A program made the translations under genes and the position numbers. A stretch of 62,668 bases of DNA from an uncultured Hyphomicrobiales bacterium (GTDB taxonomy: Bacteria; Pseudomonadota; Alphaproteobacteria; Rhizobiales; TMED25): NCBI GenBank assembly GCA_905181735.1, contig CAJIYR010000002.1:1-62668 (forward strand), given 5' to 3'. The notes under the pieces were generated by a model. That model did not search any database, was not told the origin of the DNA, and was given only the letters and a program-made list of their open reading frames with translations. Numbering within the stretch: the first letter of the stretch is position 1; each line of letters begins with the position of its first letter. Positions 55,690-62,668 of this stretch are shown here, piece by piece.

Positions 55690-55715
55690 TACGACATACA
55701 TTAAGAAAAAGATCA
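55690..55715 (-). promoter_or_regulatory. Candidate RpoE-type promoter for the DUF2177 gene
   Basis: On the minus strand TGATCT (55715-55710) is followed after 16 bases by CGTA (55693-55690). The -10 element lies 22 bases before the start codon. It shares the AATGTA and TCGTA positions with the opposite promoter. Confidence 0.65.
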
Positions 55716-55721
55716 ATTATA

Positions 55722-55747
55722 TGATCTATAGAAGAATGTAATTCGTA
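55722..55747 (+). promoter_or_regulatory. Candidate RpoE-type promoter for the FAD oxidoreductase-DUF1365-cfa operon
   Basis: TGATCT (55722-55727) is followed after 16 bases by CGTA (55744-55747), 28 bases before the start codon. The -35 boxes of this and the opposite promoter form the palindrome AGATCA-N6-TGATCT, so both cannot be occupied at once. Confidence 0.65.
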
Positions 55748-55775: not shown

Positions 55776-57056
55776 ATGATTAAAAAAAAAATAGCAATAA
55801 TTGGCTCTGGAATATCCGGGCTATCTGCGGCTTGGCTTCTATCAAAAGATCATGAAGTAACAGTATATGAAAAAAATAATTATGCCGGAGGACATGCTAA
55901 TACAGTCAAGGTACCAACAGATGACGGTGATGTGTTTGTTGATACCGGATTCATAGTTTTCAATAAAAAAAATTATCTAAATCTAACAGAGTTGTTCAAA
56001 AAACTTAATGTTAAAATCCATAATACTATAATGAGCTTTTCCCTATCAGTAGATAATGGGAGCTATGAATATTCAGGTTCTGGAGCATTAGGATATTTTG
56101 GTCAATTTTCTAATATTATAAACCCGTATCATTGGTATTTACTCTATGAAGTAAATAGATTTTTTTCTAATGCTGAGAATAATGTAAAAAAATATAGCAA
56201 AGATATTACAATCGGTAGTTTTTTAGAAAATGAGAAGTATTCACAAATATTTATAAAAAGACATATACTTCCGATGGGAGCTGCAATCTGGTCTTCTGAT
56301 CCCAATGAAATGCTCAACTATCCAGCACATAACTTTATTGCCTTCTATGCAAATCATGGGATGTTAAACTTTAAGAATAGACCATCTTGGAATACCGTTT
56401 TTAATGGAAGTAAAAACTATATCAGCAAAATTATTTCTAATTCAGATTTTGATTTAAAATTAAATACAGCAATAAAGAAAATAAAAAGAAATTCCAAGGG
56501 TGTTGAGATTATAGATATAAACAACAATACAGTAAACTTTGATCATGTAGTATTAGCTTCTCATGCAGACCAATCACTGGTTTTGCTAACCGATCCAAGC
56601 GAAAATGAGAAAAAAATATTAAGTGCATTTCGTTATCAGAAAAATATTGCAGTATTGCACAAAGATGAGAAACAGATGCCAAAAAGAAAAAAATTATGGT
56701 CAAGTTGGAATTATCTTAAAAAAAATCATAAACATTCTGAAAAATTGTCAGTAACATATTGGCTAAACAATCTGCAAGAGCTAAACACAACACAAGAACT
56801 ATTTATTACTATAAATCCGACTCATCGTATCCCAATTGATCTAATAATAAATCAGTATATTTATGAACATCCCATATTTGATAATAAAGCAATTCAATCA
56901 CAAGAATCGTTATCTAAAATACAAGGGATAGATAATACTTGGTATTGCGGTAGTTATATGGGATATGGCTTTCATGAAGATGGCATTAAGAGTGGACTAA
57001 ATGTTGCCGAATTACTTGGTTCAAGAAAACGACCGTGGTCATTTGCAGATAAATAA
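55776..57056 (+). CDS. FAD-dependent amine-oxidase-like oxidoreductase
   Basis: A 426-residue flavoprotein: FAD-binding GSGISGLSAAWLL (9-21), YEKNNYAGGHANTV, VDTGFIVFN and the C-terminal FAD segment TWYCGSYMGYGFHEDGI. The family is the one found beside DUF1365 and a cyclopropane-synthase-like methyltransferase in RpoE-ChrR regulons, where in Rhodobacter sphaeroides the group is linked with furan fatty-acid formation; a desaturase-like role on phospholipid acyl chains is therefore inferred. It opens the plus-strand operon. Confidence 0.88.
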   Translation: MIKKKIAIIGSGISGLSAAWLLSKDHEVTVYEKNNYAGGHANTVKVPTDDGDVFVDTGFIVFNKKNYLNLTELFKKLNVKIHNTIMSFSLSVDNGSYEYSGSGALGYFGQFSNIINPYHWYLLYEVNRFFSNAENNVKKYSKDITIGSFLENEKYSQIFIKRHILPMGAAIWSSDPNEMLNYPAHNFIAFYANHGMLNFKNRPSWNTVFNGSKNYISKIISNSDFDLKLNTAIKKIKRNSKGVEIIDINNNTVNFDHVVLASHADQSLVLLTDPSENEKKILSAFRYQKNIAVLHKDEKQMPKRKKLWSSWNYLKKNHKHSEKLSVTYWLNNLQELNTTQELFITINPTHRIPIDLIINQYIYEHPIFDNKAIQSQESLSKIQGIDNTWYCGSYMGYGFHEDGIKSGLNVAELLGSRKRPWSFADK

Positions 57057-57093
57057 AATATAATCACATAAAATATAATCTGAGTAATCTATT

Positions 57094-57867
57094 ATGGTAT
57101 CTAAAAATAACGGGATATTAATCGGTGATATATTTCACAAGAGATTAACTCCCGTGAAGCATATGCTAAAGTACAAGGTATTTGCTTTAATGATTGATTG
57201 TGACAAGATTGGTCAATTAAGTAATGAGATGAAATACTTTTCATATAACAGATTTAATTTATTTAGCATTCGTGATAAAGATCATGGAAATAAAACTAAT
57301 ATTACCAGCTTTCTTAACGATATAAAAATTCAAGCAAAAACAACAAATGAAGTTAAAAAATTTACGATGGTTTGTTATCCAAGAATACTGGGGTGCGCAT
57401 TTAATCCGTTAACGCTTTACTTAGGTTACAATAACAAGAATACAATTGAACTGGTTGTGTACGAAGTTAACAATACCTTCAATGGGAGAATCGTATATGT
57501 TATTCCAACAAACAATATGGATGGAGATACAATCTATCAAAATTGCAAAAAAAAATTATACATCTCCCCTTTCAATGGTAATACTGGCGAATATTTCTTT
57601 CATGTAAAAAAGACAGATCAAGAATTAAACATAGGAATCGCTTTGAAAGAGAAAACCACTCCTATTTTAAAAGCTTATTTTAAAAATAATATTATTGAAC
57701 TAAATGATTATAATTTATTAATTACATTAAAAAATAATATCTCAATGATTTTCAAAGTAATATTAGCAATCCACTACGAAGCCTTAAAACTATGGGTAAA
57801 GGGTTTAAAAATAAAAAAAAGAGCAAACGTTCCCAATTACCAAATAGAGTATATTAAAATAAAGTAA
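57094..57867 (+). CDS. DUF1365 family protein
   Basis: A 257-residue protein of DUF1365: GDIFHKRLTPVKHMLKYKVF, LSSFR-like FNLFSIRDKDHG, PRILGCAFNPLTLYLGY and YEVNNTFNGRIVYV. Biochemical function is unsettled, but it nearly always lies between the FAD oxidoreductase and the methyltransferase seen here. It is 37 bases after the former and 20 before the latter, in one operon. Confidence 0.9.
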   Translation: MVSKNNGILIGDIFHKRLTPVKHMLKYKVFALMIDCDKIGQLSNEMKYFSYNRFNLFSIRDKDHGNKTNITSFLNDIKIQAKTTNEVKKFTMVCYPRILGCAFNPLTLYLGYNNKNTIELVVYEVNNTFNGRIVYVIPTNNMDGDTIYQNCKKKLYISPFNGNTGEYFFHVKKTDQELNIGIALKEKTTPILKAYFKNNIIELNDYNLLITLKNNISMIFKVILAIHYEALKLWVKGLKIKKRANVPNYQIEYIKIK

Positions 57868-57887
57868 TGCTAACAGAGAGTTAAAAA

Positions 57888-59084
57888 ATGAAGTTTATAA
57901 AAAATAATACTAAACATAAAATAATTGAAAATTTATTGTTTAAAGAACTTGATTGGACTCCATTAGGTTGCCTCTCCATAACGTTACCTAATGGTAAGGA
58001 ATTCATCTTTGGTAAGAAAAATAGTGGAATCAATGCCTCAATTAAATTGCATAATTACAAACTATTTAGATCTTTTTTATTCAAAGGACCCCTTGCGTTT
58101 GCGGATTGTTATATTTCAAATGAATTTGAATGTGAGGATTTAACAAATTTGTTCAAATTTTACATTCACAACAAAGAATGTTTCCAAAATACTTTCTTAA
58201 AATATTTTAAAATATTCAATTATGATTATCTACGGAAATTGCTCAATAAAAACACAATAAATCGTAGTAAAAAAAATATATCACTTCATTATGACTTAGG
58301 TAATAATTTCTTCCAACAATGGCTTGATGAGACTATGCAATATTCTAGCGCTCATTATGAAAATAAACATAAAAACCTTAAGGATGCTCAATATAATAAA
58401 TTCAAAAATATCAATAATTTATTAGATCTCTCTAAAGATGATAACGTTCTTGAAATAGGTTGCGGATGGGGTTCTTTAGCTCAATATCTCTTTAATGAAA
58501 ATGATATTAGCATTGACGCAATAACAATTTCAGAAAAACAACTCCAGTATGCAAAAAAACTTAGCCTTAAATCAAAGTCCAATAATTGCTCTTTTAAATT
58601 GCTAGACTATAGACACACCAGCGGATTATACGACAAAATAGTCTCCGTCGAAATGATTGAAGCCGTTGGGATAAAATATCTTCCTGTCTACTTTGAAACA
58701 ATTAAAAATAGACTTAAACCGAATGGATACGCGATTATTCAAGCTATAACAATTGGAGAAGAAAGCTTTAGTAATTATTCCCGTAACGTTGATTTCATTC
58801 AAAAATATATTTTTCCTGGTGGAGTGCTACCAAGCATAAAACAACTTGAGAAAGAAACCATGAGACATGGACTTGAAATTGAAAATATCAATATATTGAA
58901 TGATTCTTATGCAAAAACTCTTCAAGAATGGAGAAATAAATTTAATAATAACTGGGAGATCATAAAAAAAATAGGATACGATGAAAAATTTAAAAGAACC
59001 TGGAACTATTATTTATCGTATTGTGAAGCAGGATTTGCTGAAAGAACTATTAATGTAGGTCTCTATAAAATAAAATCAATGTAA
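57888..59084 (+). CDS. Cyclopropane-fatty-acyl-phospholipid synthase-like methyltransferase
   Basis: A 398-residue SAM-dependent methyltransferase. The SAM-binding motif is VLEIGCGWGSLAQYL, LHYDLGNNFFQQWLDETMQYSSA (split about 131-154) is the Cfa N-cap, and VEMIEAVG and GGVLPS follow. The N-terminal domain is present in short form. In RpoE-ChrR gene groups such enzymes methylate unsaturated acyl chains (UfaM-type) rather than making simple cyclopropanes; which of the two holds here is inference. It converges with an SDR gene two bases on. Confidence 0.9.
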   Translation: MKFIKNNTKHKIIENLLFKELDWTPLGCLSITLPNGKEFIFGKKNSGINASIKLHNYKLFRSFLFKGPLAFADCYISNEFECEDLTNLFKFYIHNKECFQNTFLKYFKIFNYDYLRKLLNKNTINRSKKNISLHYDLGNNFFQQWLDETMQYSSAHYENKHKNLKDAQYNKFKNINNLLDLSKDDNVLEIGCGWGSLAQYLFNENDISIDAITISEKQLQYAKKLSLKSKSNNCSFKLLDYRHTSGLYDKIVSVEMIEAVGIKYLPVYFETIKNRLKPNGYAIIQAITIGEESFSNYSRNVDFIQKYIFPGGVLPSIKQLEKETMRHGLEIENINILNDSYAKTLQEWRNKFNNNWEIIKKIGYDEKFKRTWNYYLSYCEAGFAERTINVGLYKIKSM

Positions 59085-59086
59085 TA

Positions 59087-59845
59087 TTATTTCCATATAA
59101 ATTTTTTTACTATCCAAAAATATAAACTATTCGGAATTATTCTTAATAACTTTAATAATAATGAAAAATGTAATGGGAATGCTATTTCATATTTATCTTT
59201 CTTTAATCCATTAAATATTTTCTCTGCAGCAAATTTAGCAGAAACAATAGAAGGCATTGGGAATTTATTCACTTTCGTCATTTCCGTATCGACAAATCCT
59301 GGGTTAATTAATGTAACCACAATCCCGTACTTTGAAAGTTCTGATCTTAATACTTCTGCTAAATTTATTAATGCAGCTTTTGTCGGCCCATAAGCTATAG
59401 AATTAGGCAAACCTCTATATCCAGCTACAGATGATACAATTGCTATGTGCCCTGTTTTTGCTTTAATCATCTTAGGAATAATAATACCGAGAGAGTGTAT
59501 AACTCCCATATAATTTACCTCAAAACATTCTCTAATAGCTTTAGAGTCAAGATCATTGACTTTAAACAAAGAACTCTTACCTGCATTTAAAACAACCAAA
59601 TCAATGTTACCGTTCGATTTTTTTTCTATCTCCTCAATACAAATCCTGCTTTCTTTTTCGTTGGTAATGTCTAATTTATGGCTATGTATGTTATTATAAT
59701 TATCAGCTAACTCTTTTAACTTACTTTCTCTTCTTGCCGACACAGCAATGTAAGAGGCTTCACTGGATAGTAATTTTGATAACTCATATCCTATACCTGA
59801 ACTAGCACCGGTGATCCATATTGTGTTCCATTTATTCATATTCAA
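59087..59845 (-). CDS. Short-chain dehydrogenase/reductase
   Basis: A 252-residue SDR with TGASSGIGYEL at the N-terminus, NAGKSSLF, the catalytic serine in IVSSVAGYRG and Y-x3-K in AYGPTKAAL. The C-terminus has a hydrophobic, basic stretch (FPLHFSLLLKLLRIIPNSLYF) that may rest on the membrane. It is eight bases after chrR and so is in the rpoE-chrR operon; a lipid-linked substrate would suit the neighbours. Confidence 0.9.
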   Translation of the reverse strand: MNMNKWNTIWITGASSGIGYELSKLLSSEASYIAVSARRESKLKELADNYNNIHSHKLDITNEKESRICIEEIEKKSNGNIDLVVLNAGKSSLFKVNDLDSKAIRECFEVNYMGVIHSLGIIIPKMIKAKTGHIAIVSSVAGYRGLPNSIAYGPTKAALINLAEVLRSELSKYGIVVTLINPGFVDTEMTKVNKFPMPSIVSAKFAAEKIFNGLKKDKYEIAFPLHFSLLLKLLRIIPNSLYFWIVKKFIWK

Positions 59846-59853
59846 TAAATCTC

Positions 59854-60528
59854 TTAAATACGGTAGAAAGATTGAAATACATTAGCAAAAAAACTTTTAA
59901 ATACCATTGGCCCTTCCGTTGCAACAATACATACGCAAGGCTGCTTCCCGGAGACTGTTGGCTGGTGCTCAATCTCTTGATCATGATCAGCGATATCACC
60001 AATACTGTATGCCCCTGTTTTATCTTCGAAAGAACCTGAAACAACAAATGTCATTTCTTCTCCAGTATGCGTATGCTGTGGGATCTTTTTTCCCGGAGCA
60101 ATATGCAGAAGTGACAAATAGGCATCTTTCTCACCCTCAATTAATATTGTAAACTTTTTGATACCAGGCGCTAAATATTTCCATTTAATCTTTTCAAGAG
60201 AAGATCCTATATATTTATATAAAGGGAAAGGTATTTCTATCATTTCGTTTTCTTGTTTAACATCTGTATTTACTCTACCAATAGTTAATTCATCACTATT
60301 CTCATTTTCTATTGAATCCATAAACTTGCTTAAAGCCTCTTGGCTAAGAGTTATACCTGCTATATCTTCGACCAAAACGCCCCCCACCTCATTATATAAC
60401 CTAACCTTTTCTGTACATTTACTACAAAGAGAAATGTGCGCTGAAATAAGTATAGAGAATGGAGTTGATAGACCCCCACTACTATATGATAATAAAGACG
60501 CTGGATCTGGGTGTTGGGACAACTTCAT
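59854..60528 (-). CDS. chrR: Zinc-binding cupin anti-sigma factor ChrR
   Basis: A 224-residue anti-sigma factor that holds RpoE until singlet oxygen or organic hydroperoxide acts. The N-terminal anti-sigma domain has zinc ligands H6, H31, C35 and C38, the same positions as in the Rhodobacter sphaeroides protein as I recall it. The C-terminal cupin has H152-x-H154-x3-E158 and H188, and the paired C198/C200 corresponds to the CxC of that protein. Its ATG overlaps the stop of the sigma gene (ATGA), the normal coupling of a sigma/anti-sigma pair. Confidence 0.95.
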   Translation of the reverse strand: MKLSQHPDPASLLSYSSGGLSTPFSILISAHISLCSKCTEKVRLYNEVGGVLVEDIAGITLSQEALSKFMDSIENENSDELTIGRVNTDVKQENEMIEIPFPLYKYIGSSLEKIKWKYLAPGIKKFTILIEGEKDAYLSLLHIAPGKKIPQHTHTGEEMTFVVSGSFEDKTGAYSIGDIADHDQEIEHQPTVSGKQPCVCIVATEGPMVFKSFFANVFQSFYRI

Positions 60529-61070
60529 TGATACTCCTTAAAACATTCTTTTAATTTTATATAAGCTAACCTCATGCGAGATTTTACCGTTCCTATTGGA
60601 ATCTCTAATCTCTTTGCTATTTCTTTCTGAGTTAGATCCTCATTAAATGCCATTTCAATTATAATTTTTTGTTTTTCTGGTAACTGCCTTATTATTTTTT
60701 TTACATTCCCCGCTAGCTGAGAATCTAACATTAATTTTTCACTATCAGGGTCGTTAGACATTATTTCTACTTCATTAATGTCGACATATGGCTGCGAAGA
60801 TTTCTTCCTTAAAACATCTATTCTTTTATTTCTCGCTATTGTATAAATCCACGAGCTAAAGCTTCCCTTGCTTGGGTTATATAAATCAATTTTTTTCCAT
60901 ACCGTTAACATTGTATCATGCATTATATCTTCTGCAAAAGCATAGTCAGAACCACCTCTAATCATGAGGGCCTTAATTTTTGGCCCATAAAGTTGAAATA
61001 ACAAGCTAAAATCTTTGGGGTTTTTCTTTATTTGAAGTTTTTTAACAAATGTTAAGTCTATCTGTATCAT
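60525..61070 (-). CDS. rpoE: ECF sigma factor RpoE (ECF11-like)
   Basis: A 181-residue ECF sigma factor. Region 2 is FSLLFQLYGPKIKALMIRGG through SWIYTIARNKRIDVLRKK (about 20-95), and region 4 is LPEKQKIIIEMAFNEDLTQKEIAKRLEIPIGTVKSRM (about 130-168). The pairing with ChrR marks it as the singlet-oxygen-responsive class. A TGATCC-N16-CGTT element 52 bases upstream suggests self-activation. The start codon has only a weak ribosome site. Confidence 0.95.
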   Translation of the reverse strand: MIQIDLTFVKKLQIKKNPKDFSLLFQLYGPKIKALMIRGGSDYAFAEDIMHDTMLTVWKKIDLYNPSKGSFSSWIYTIARNKRIDVLRKKSSQPYVDINEVEIMSNDPDSEKLMLDSQLAGNVKKIIRQLPEKQKIIIEMAFNEDLTQKEIAKRLEIPIGTVKSRMRLAYIKLKECFKEYQ

Positions 61071-61121
61071 TTACTTACTTTATATAAAGTCATGTTAATT
61101 TTAAAATGACCCCACTATATG

Positions 61122-61147
61122 AACGTTTTTAAAAATATAATGGATCA
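61122..61147 (-). promoter_or_regulatory. Candidate RpoE-type promoter of rpoE-chrR-SDR
   Basis: On the minus strand TGATCC (61147-61142) is followed after 16 bases by CGTT (61125-61122). It has the same spacing as the two elements at 55690-55747. The -10 end is 51 bases before the rpoE ATG. Confidence 0.65.
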
Positions 61148-61178
61148 AATTATTTTTTGTGATTTAAATTATGCAATA

Positions 61179-61204
61179 AAATCCATTATAGTTTTATAAA
61201 CGTT
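61179..61204 (+). promoter_or_regulatory. Candidate weaker RpoE-type promoter of the divergent SDR gene
   Basis: AAATCC (61179-61184) in place of TGATCC, then 16 bases and CGTT (61201-61204), 21 bases before the SDR start codon. The -35 has two mismatches to TGATCC, so it may be weak. Confidence 0.45.
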
Positions 61205-61225
61205 ATAGAGAAAAGGGTAAACTCT

Positions 61226-61975
61226 ATGCATACTAATCTTTTATCAAATTTTAACAATGATTTAAATATAGCGGTTATTGGATCCTCTGGTGGTATAGGC
61301 AATGCGCTTGTGTCTGCAATGGAAAGTACAGTTAATGTAAAAAATATTATACATATCGCAAGATCTAATTCTAAAACAAGCACTAAACAAAACTGTCTGC
61401 ACATTGATCTTCTAGACGAAGAAACAATAATAAATTGTTCAAATAAAATATCTGAAATATATAAAGATTTAGACATAATAATTAACGCTTCTGGTTTTCT
61501 TCACGATAATGACCACAAGCCAGAAAAATCATATAAAATGATCGACGCAGCATACCTAGAAAAATCATTTAGGGTTAATACATTTGGCCCGTTCCTTCTA
61601 GCCAAACATTTCATACCCTTGCTAAGAAAGGACAGAAAATCTATTTTTAGTTGTATATCTGCAAGGGTTGGCAGTATCGAAGATAACCAACTTGGTGGTT
61701 GGCATAGCTATAGGGCGTCAAAAGCTGCTCTAAATATGCTATTAAAGAATCTTTCTATTGAATTAAAATATACCAATAAACATGCAATATGTGTTGGACT
61801 CCATCCTGGTACTGTTGATACAAATCTATCAAAACCCTTTCCAAAATCACGTTCTCACTATAATGTTTTTACCCCTAATGAATCTTCTCAGCATCTCATT
61901 TCAGTGATTAATAAATTAGAACCCAAAGATTCTGGAAATACTTATGATTGGGCAGGTAAAAGAATCCCATTTTAA
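61226..61975 (+). CDS. Short-chain dehydrogenase/reductase (C-factor-like)
   Basis: A 249-residue SDR. The coenzyme motif is GSSGGIGNAL, the catalytic set is S in FSCISARVG and Y-x3-K in YRASKAAL, and PGTVDTNLSKPF is the C-factor-like lid. It starts 155 bases from and diverges from rpoE, behind a TGATCC-like element, so it probably belongs to the same stress regulon. Its substrate is unknown. A 76-base gap with no further feature follows. Confidence 0.9.
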   Translation: MHTNLLSNFNNDLNIAVIGSSGGIGNALVSAMESTVNVKNIIHIARSNSKTSTKQNCLHIDLLDEETIINCSNKISEIYKDLDIIINASGFLHDNDHKPEKSYKMIDAAYLEKSFRVNTFGPFLLAKHFIPLLRKDRKSIFSCISARVGSIEDNQLGGWHSYRASKAALNMLLKNLSIELKYTNKHAICVGLHPGTVDTNLSKPFPKSRSHYNVFTPNESSQHLISVINKLEPKDSGNTYDWAGKRIPF

Positions 61976-62051: not shown

Positions 62052-62668
62052 ATGTCTAAAAATAAAAAAATAGCTGTTCTTGGAACTGGAGCGAATGGAA
62101 GTTGCTCAGCAGCAGACCTAACAAGATTTGGTTACGACGTTACTTTAATAGACCAATGGCCAGAACACGTAGATACTATGAATCAAGATGGCCTTACCAT
62201 TCAAATGCCCGAAGAAGAAATCAACGTAAAAGTCAAAGCTTACCATCTTTGCAAGTTGTGTGAATTGAACATTAAATTTGATATAGTTTTACTATACGTT
62301 AAAGCCTATGATTCTGTTTGGATGACTGAATTGATTAAACCCTACCTAGCTGACGATGGCATTATGGTAGGAGTGCAAAATGCAATGACAGCAGAAGATA
62401 TCACGAATATTGTTGGTTCACATAGGACACTTGGATGTGTCATTGAATTATCTTCTGAATTATTTACACCAGGAATTATTCAAAGAGATACACCTCCCGC
62501 AAGAACATGGTTTGGTATTGGTGCCTTGACAGCTGATATGGAACCAAGATTAAAAGAAATTGAAGAGATTTTATCAAATATAGGCAATGTAACTATATTA
62601 GAAAATATTCTCTCGGCTAAATGGATGAAATTAATTGTTAATGCAATGTGTATGGCTCCATTTGCAAT
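62052..62668 (+). CDS. Ketopantoate reductase-family protein, 3' end missing
   Basis: The frame is open from the ATG at 62052, preceded by GGGGAT, to the end of the window (about 205 residues). The NADPH motif is GTGANGSCSA (10-19), and YVKAYD, VGVQNAM and the catalytic-lysine region SAKWMKLIVNAM match the PanE/ApbA family. PanE makes pantoate for CoA; related paralogues reduce other 2-oxo acids, and sequence here does not tell which. Confidence 0.88.
   Translation, partial: MSKNKKIAVLGTGANGSCSAADLTRFGYDVTLIDQWPEHVDTMNQDGLTIQMPEEEINVKVKAYHLCKLCELNIKFDIVLLYVKAYDSVWMTELIKPYLADDGIMVGVQNAMTAEDITNIVGSHRTLGCVIELSSELFTPGIIQRDTPPARTWFGIGALTADMEPRLKEIEEILSNIGNVTILENILSAKWMKLIVNAMCMAPFA

Follow-up and report, generated by a model that had tools for sequence, protein, structure and literature searches.

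The closest described system is the singlet oxygen regulon of Rhodobacter sphaeroides and its relatives, in which an ECF sigma factor of the ECF11 type (RpoE) is paired with ChrR and has its own promoter of the form TGATCC-N16-CGTW, with cfa, amine oxidase, and SDR genes as core neighbours; the locus described here shares the sigma factor, ChrR, promoter type, and core neighbours, but its divergent partner of rpoE is a PRK09009-like SDR gene, where most facing-pair loci examined outside the family have an amine oxidase-like gene. The RpoE-ChrR (ECF11) consensus is given as TGATCC-N16-CGTA in the available parts of two papers (PMC5507510; PMC4336711). In Shewanella oneidensis, RpoE2 is listed as driving the promoters of both rpoE2(-chrR) and its neighbour SO_1987, and the phr-SO_4170 locus, with an SDR gene of the CsgA type, is likewise RpoE2-dependent (PMC4336711, available part). 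Unlike at the present locus, however, the two promoter spacers reproduced in that part differ, as judged by eye, and the SDR gene lies elsewhere (PMC4336711). Template switching, which homogenises the arms of short inverted repeats, provides a second type of precedent (PMC8604942). The present locus is similar in that its arms are nearly identical while those of related genomes are imperfect, although the cases in the available part of PMC8604942 concern yeast coding genes on tracked branches, whereas here the comparison is with a distant sister genus. In the literature searched we found no paper on an inverted duplication of divergent sigma-factor promoters, and none of the matches listed for OCS116 and rpoE concerned this locus.

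The window, i.e. the whole 62,668-nt stretch of DNA analysed, contains an rpoE locus with the features expected of the ECF11/RpoE-ChrR group: sigma regions 2 and 4, an adjacent ChrR, its own promoter, and core regulon genes nearby (cfa, DUF1365, amine oxidase, and SDR; Table 1). The ChrR translation has His6, His31, Cys35, and Cys38, which we take to be the zinc ligands. The SDR gene downstream of chrR is the probable counterpart of RSP_1087, judging from Table 2 in the available part of PMC5507510.

Table 1. Coordinates of the genes, promoter-like sites, and repeat arms in the window
Feature	Position	Strand	Remarks
Amine oxidase, DUF1365, and cyclopropane fatty acid synthase genes	55776..59084	+	ECF11 core regulon neighbours; conserved order
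SDR gene downstream of chrR	59087..59845	-	adh_short; kept in place in the family, L039, and L040
chrR, anti-sigma factor	59854..60528	-	TIGR02451, 193.3 bits (cut-off 124.5); Cupin_7
rpoE, ECF sigma factor (ECF11 type)	60525..61070	-	Pfam Sigma70_r2 and r4 (PF04542, PF08281); paired with ChrR
Divergent SDR gene, PRK09009-like	61226..61975	+	adh_short; NF006532/PRK09009, 236 bits, below the cut-off of 330
ApbA/PanE-like reductase, next after the SDR gene	62052..62666	+	Runs off the window
rpoE promoter, ECF11 type, TGATCC-N16-CGTT	61122..61147	-	51 nt upstream of rpoE ATG
Gap between the two -35 hexamers, 31 bp	61148..61178	.	
SDR promoter candidate, AAATCC-N16-CGTT	61179..61204	+	21 nt upstream of SDR ATG
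Inverted-repeat arm 1	61122..61145	-	Repeat search
Inverted-repeat arm 2	61181..61204	+	Repeat search
Second facing pair, DUF2177 side, TGATCT-N16-CGTA	55690..55715	-	Conserved in G001
Second facing pair, amine oxidase side, TGATCT-N16-CGTA	55722..55747	+	Conserved in G001

The region that separates rpoE from the divergent SDR gene contains two facing promoter-like sites of the RpoE-ChrR (ECF11) type. The rpoE site fits the ECF11 autoregulatory type, with CGTT rather than the consensus CGTA as its -10. The SDR-side site is the weaker; its CGTT -10 and 16-nt spacing fit ECF11, and its -35 (AAATCC) matches at four of six positions. By analogy with its relatives, ChrR would release RpoE under singlet oxygen, and the freed sigma factor would then transcribe its own rpoE-chrR-SDR operon leftwards and, as the SDR-side site suggests, the divergent SDR gene rightwards. 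The opposed orientation of the sites requires no inversion event, since divergent gene pairs under one sigma factor always have inverted promoters. A sigma70 reading was considered and set aside: both arms of the repeat described below have TATAAT on the opposite strand to their ECF site, but a sigma70 consensus scan returned four promoter-like sites against 2.6 expected. By eye, a TGATTT is also seen at a distance of 12 nt from the rpoE -35, and may be the relic of an old SDR -35.

The 155-bp intergenic region is also the site of an inverted repeat. The earlier note had described a 24-base segment repeated in inverse orientation with 22 matches, running from the -35 end to the -10, and this description is borne out by repeat search and shuffling: the arms are complementary at 22/24 positions (92%) and separated by 35 nt, and constitute the sole 24-nt inverted repeat in the window when 20 or more matches are required and the arms may be separated by about 100 nt at most. 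When the intergenic region was shuffled 1000 times with its dinucleotides preserved, the best repeat usually had 15–17 matches of 24, with a maximum of 21, and 22 was never reached. A search of the 1.39-Mb genome for further copies of an arm with at most three mismatches returned none. The repeat begins within the -35 hexamer, at ATCC of TGATCC on the rpoE side and of AAATCC on the SDR side, and extends through the spacers, which alone match at 14/16 positions. Only 138 of 200,000 letter shuffles of the SDR spacer attained this value, and of the 3568 window 16-mers with at least 15 A/T (both strands), three have 14 or more matches to the rpoE spacer, namely that spacer, the SDR arm, and a further 16-mer located elsewhere in the window. 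Chance is an unlikely source of the match.

Facing ECF11 pairs from the window and 108 further loci, each with at least one strict site (TGATCY-N16-CGTW), were used as a yardstick. Upstream of rpoE (from -250 bp to +30 bp within the gene), 49 of the 109 sequences have a strict site, 20 a relaxed one, and 40 none. In the 23 distinct pairs obtained, a rough set, since GC-rich genomes contribute most of them and some may be inactive as promoters, the spacer matches of the window's genus are the highest (14 and 12), the other 21 ranging from 1 to 10 of 16. The strict-site rule excluded one pair from the sister genus (G004, 5/16), which has TAAACT on both sides. On this rough yardstick, strong spacer likeness is not normal for facing ECF11 promoters, and the earlier note's statement that the likeness includes the spacer thus holds beyond both chance and the usual pairs. 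The window has a second facing pair, between the DUF2177 and amine oxidase genes, in which the sites are 6 bp apart and the spacers 8/16 alike; relative to the congener G001 its spacers differ at a total of three positions (14/16 and 15/16 identical).

We compared 14 genomes of the family, comprising two of the window's genus (G000, the window's own genome, and G001) and others including a sister genus; the counterparts are OCS116-cluster, Rhodobiaceae, and Rhizobiales metagenome-assembled and single-cell genomes. This rpoE is present in 13 of them, the one without it (G007) being 77% complete, and in all 13 the same SDR gene is adjacent and divergent, with 88% identity in G001 and 46–50% in the sister genus. 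The order ApbA<SDR<|>rpoE>chrR>SDR|<CFA<DUF1365<amine oxidase|>DUF2177>amidohydrolase is kept in 8/8 family records (L031–L038), with ApbA always on the same side of the SDR gene, although about 2.5 kb away in L032. A profile search of the other 88 rpoE loci, some with little upstream DNA, found no comparable SDR gene adjoining rpoE upstream. In alphaproteobacterial loci, rpoE repeatedly has facing ECF11-type sites, most often next to a putative amine oxidase gene, which is the divergent neighbour in nine of the 12 facing-pair loci examined outside the family; the calls were made by eye (GSGISG...GGHA start) and by tblastn for L045, L070, L075, L079, L086, L103, and L105, and no amine oxidase-like divergent frame was found in L063, L073, or L026. 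In the family the SDR gene occupies the divergent slot and the amine oxidase operon is convergent downstream, implying that the slot has changed hands. The PRK09009-like SDR gene is added here as a family-wide neighbour of rpoE in an OCS116-like marine lineage and a candidate member of the singlet oxygen regulon. A scan of viral sequences returned only distant sigma factors (24–32%).

The rpoE-side site, as T[GA]A[TA]C[CT]-N16-CGT[AT], is present in all 13 family genomes with this rpoE, at 51–52 nt upstream of the gene in G000 and G001 and at 41–44 nt in 11/11 sister-genus genomes. An SDR-side site is recognisable in six of the 13, at 21 nt from the SDR start in G000 and G001 and at 19 nt in G004, G005, G008, and G011, and in none of the other seven of the 11 sister-genus genomes (G002, G003, G006, G009, G010, G012, and G013). 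By eye, G010 retains the -35 box of G004, with no -10 at the right distance. Within pairs, the spacers match at 14 (G000), 12 (G001), 5 (G004), 7 (G005), 6 (G008), and 7 (G011) of 16 positions. Homology between the SDR spacers of the two genera was tested and is not visible (5–7/16 only). In a midpoint-rooted tree of joined RpoE and SDR proteins, G000 and G001 lie on one side and the rest on the other, where G004+G010 and G005+G008+G011 form separate supported groups; since SDR-side sites occur in separate groups, they would either go back to the ancestor of the family and have been lost in some members, or have arisen repeatedly. With seven of 11 sister-genus genomes lacking such a site, an ancestral SDR promoter is argued for by parsimony and position, and strict positional homology is unproven because the gap between the -35 boxes is 31 bp in the window and 14 bp in the four sister-genus genomes (46 bp in G001). 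In part of the sister genus (L003–L009 and L013) the rpoE -35 is TAAACT instead of TGATCY, as it is in both facing promoters of G004, as if the -35 preference of the sigma factor and its promoters had shifted together.

Both between-arm differences of G000 are also present in G001, and the likeness is therefore older than the split of these two genomes; it presumably arose after the genus parted from the sister genus, whose pairs are unlike. The earlier note's term "recent" for the duplication applies only in this relative sense, as the congener has both arms. Three further arm differences between G000 and G001 each leave G000 the more symmetrical, as would be expected equally if the symmetry had decayed in G001 or if the arms of G000 had converged later. 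G001 also has a perfect 15-bp tandem repeat of 2.2 copies at the rpoE -35 region (L033 7902–7934), so that rpoE is preceded by two TGATCC boxes at a 15-bp interval.

Since the facing sites are real and their spacer match exceeds both chance and the usual pairs, a copying event is a fair inference, and we consider it probable that the locus represents an old facing ECF11 pair, one arm of which was overwritten by a copy of the other in an ancestor of the genus. The gene pair would have existed before this genus, probably along with an RpoE promoter on the SDR side, and in the ancestor of the genus the two promoters would have become near copies, most likely with one arm serving as template for the other. 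The -35 and -10 boxes shared by the promoters in themselves form a short imperfect inverted repeat, able to seed template switching; a tract that spans the -35 core to the -10 is the extent expected if the boxes were the seeds. A short inverted duplication overwriting an older SDR promoter would look the same. Against copying, the SDR -35 is AAATCC where a fresh copy would carry TGATCC, and the nearest outgroup, the sister genus, is too distant to display the state before copying. Copying, if it took place, would be a simple way for the divergent promoters of one regulon to become homogenised. Of the earlier note's duplication proposal, the two facing RpoE-type sites and the copying thus stand, the latter as a reasonable reading, whereas the copy as recruiter of the SDR gene does not (see below). 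The pair is best regarded as an ordinary ECF11 arrangement, to judge from its sequence, with a small evolutionary curiosity.

A rather doubtful alternative is that the arms converged, i.e. that in this AT-rich lineage the preferred spacer of RpoE promoters is first T-rich and then A-rich, and that the match reflects this preference plus luck. Some sister-genus rpoE spacers follow such a trend, e.g. ATTTTATAGAATAAAA and TTTTTCTAGAAAAAAA, and in five of the eight sister-genus genomes compared the rpoE spacer matches that of the window's genus at 9–11/16 positions. The spacers may moreover be constrained, since 140 of the 155 aligned intergenic bases are identical between G000 and G001 (15 differ), whereas 162 of 615 four-fold sites have changed in eight neighbouring genes. 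However, a general preference of this kind would not readily account for sister-genus SDR spacers that match their own rpoE spacers at only 5–7/16, for the rarity of 14/16 among shuffles of the SDR spacer, or for the window's two other ECF11 sites, which match the arms at 3–6/16.

The proposal of the earlier note that the rpoE promoter was recently duplicated in inverse orientation, and that this brought the SDR gene under RpoE control in one step, is very unlikely. It would account for the 22/24 repeat, but the SDR gene is divergent from rpoE in every family genome with the locus, four of the 11 sister-genus genomes have SDR-side sites with dissimilar spacers at a near-equal distance from the start codon, and the copy is also in G001. 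The proposed comparison of the spacer in relatives, to see whether copy and gene appear together, returned the gene without the copy and, in these four genomes, SDR-side sites with unlike spacers, the latter being the sequence half of the evidence named in that note as contrary; the relatives thus already largely refute one-step recruitment as read from sequence. The link between copy and recruitment fails, since genomes without the copy still have the gene and, in some members of the sister genus, an unlike promoter-like site as well. Traces of promoter duplication in a sequence are therefore no sure sign that a regulatory link arose with them; here the gene predates the likeness, and the link probably does too.

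That the repeat is instead the operator of a dimeric regulator or an RNA hairpin, as its symmetry and 35-nt separation might suggest, is the least probable reading, given that correctly spaced ECF11 -35 and -10 boxes lie on both arms, that transcripts from either promoter would be expected to start outside the arms, that neither an Rfam match (up to E = 1 in 60900–61400) nor a terminator-like site was found, and that the sister genus lacks the symmetry.

Copying within an old pair, our preferred reading, may have a wider counterpart: we tentatively suggest that facing promoters of one sigma factor evolve in concert, their boxes allowing template-switch copying that includes the spacer. If so, the divergent promoters of a regulon could be rewritten in one mutation, with this locus as a natural example, and the 15-bp tandem duplication in G001 would be a second local copying event.

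A whole-genome scan for TGATCN-N16/17-CGTW returned 32 sites, against 18 for a reversed control pattern; as most sites in the 11 stretches inspected around AT-rich or strict sites lie inside genes and a few before genes, the scan was rejected as too noisy to define a regulon. Three ECF11-like sites that do lie shortly before genes mark candidate RpoE targets: a predicted membrane transporter gene (L219 780–805) and an acyl-CoA-dehydrogenase-like gene (L221 1849–1874), both named by eye, and an unnamed gene (L224 826–851).
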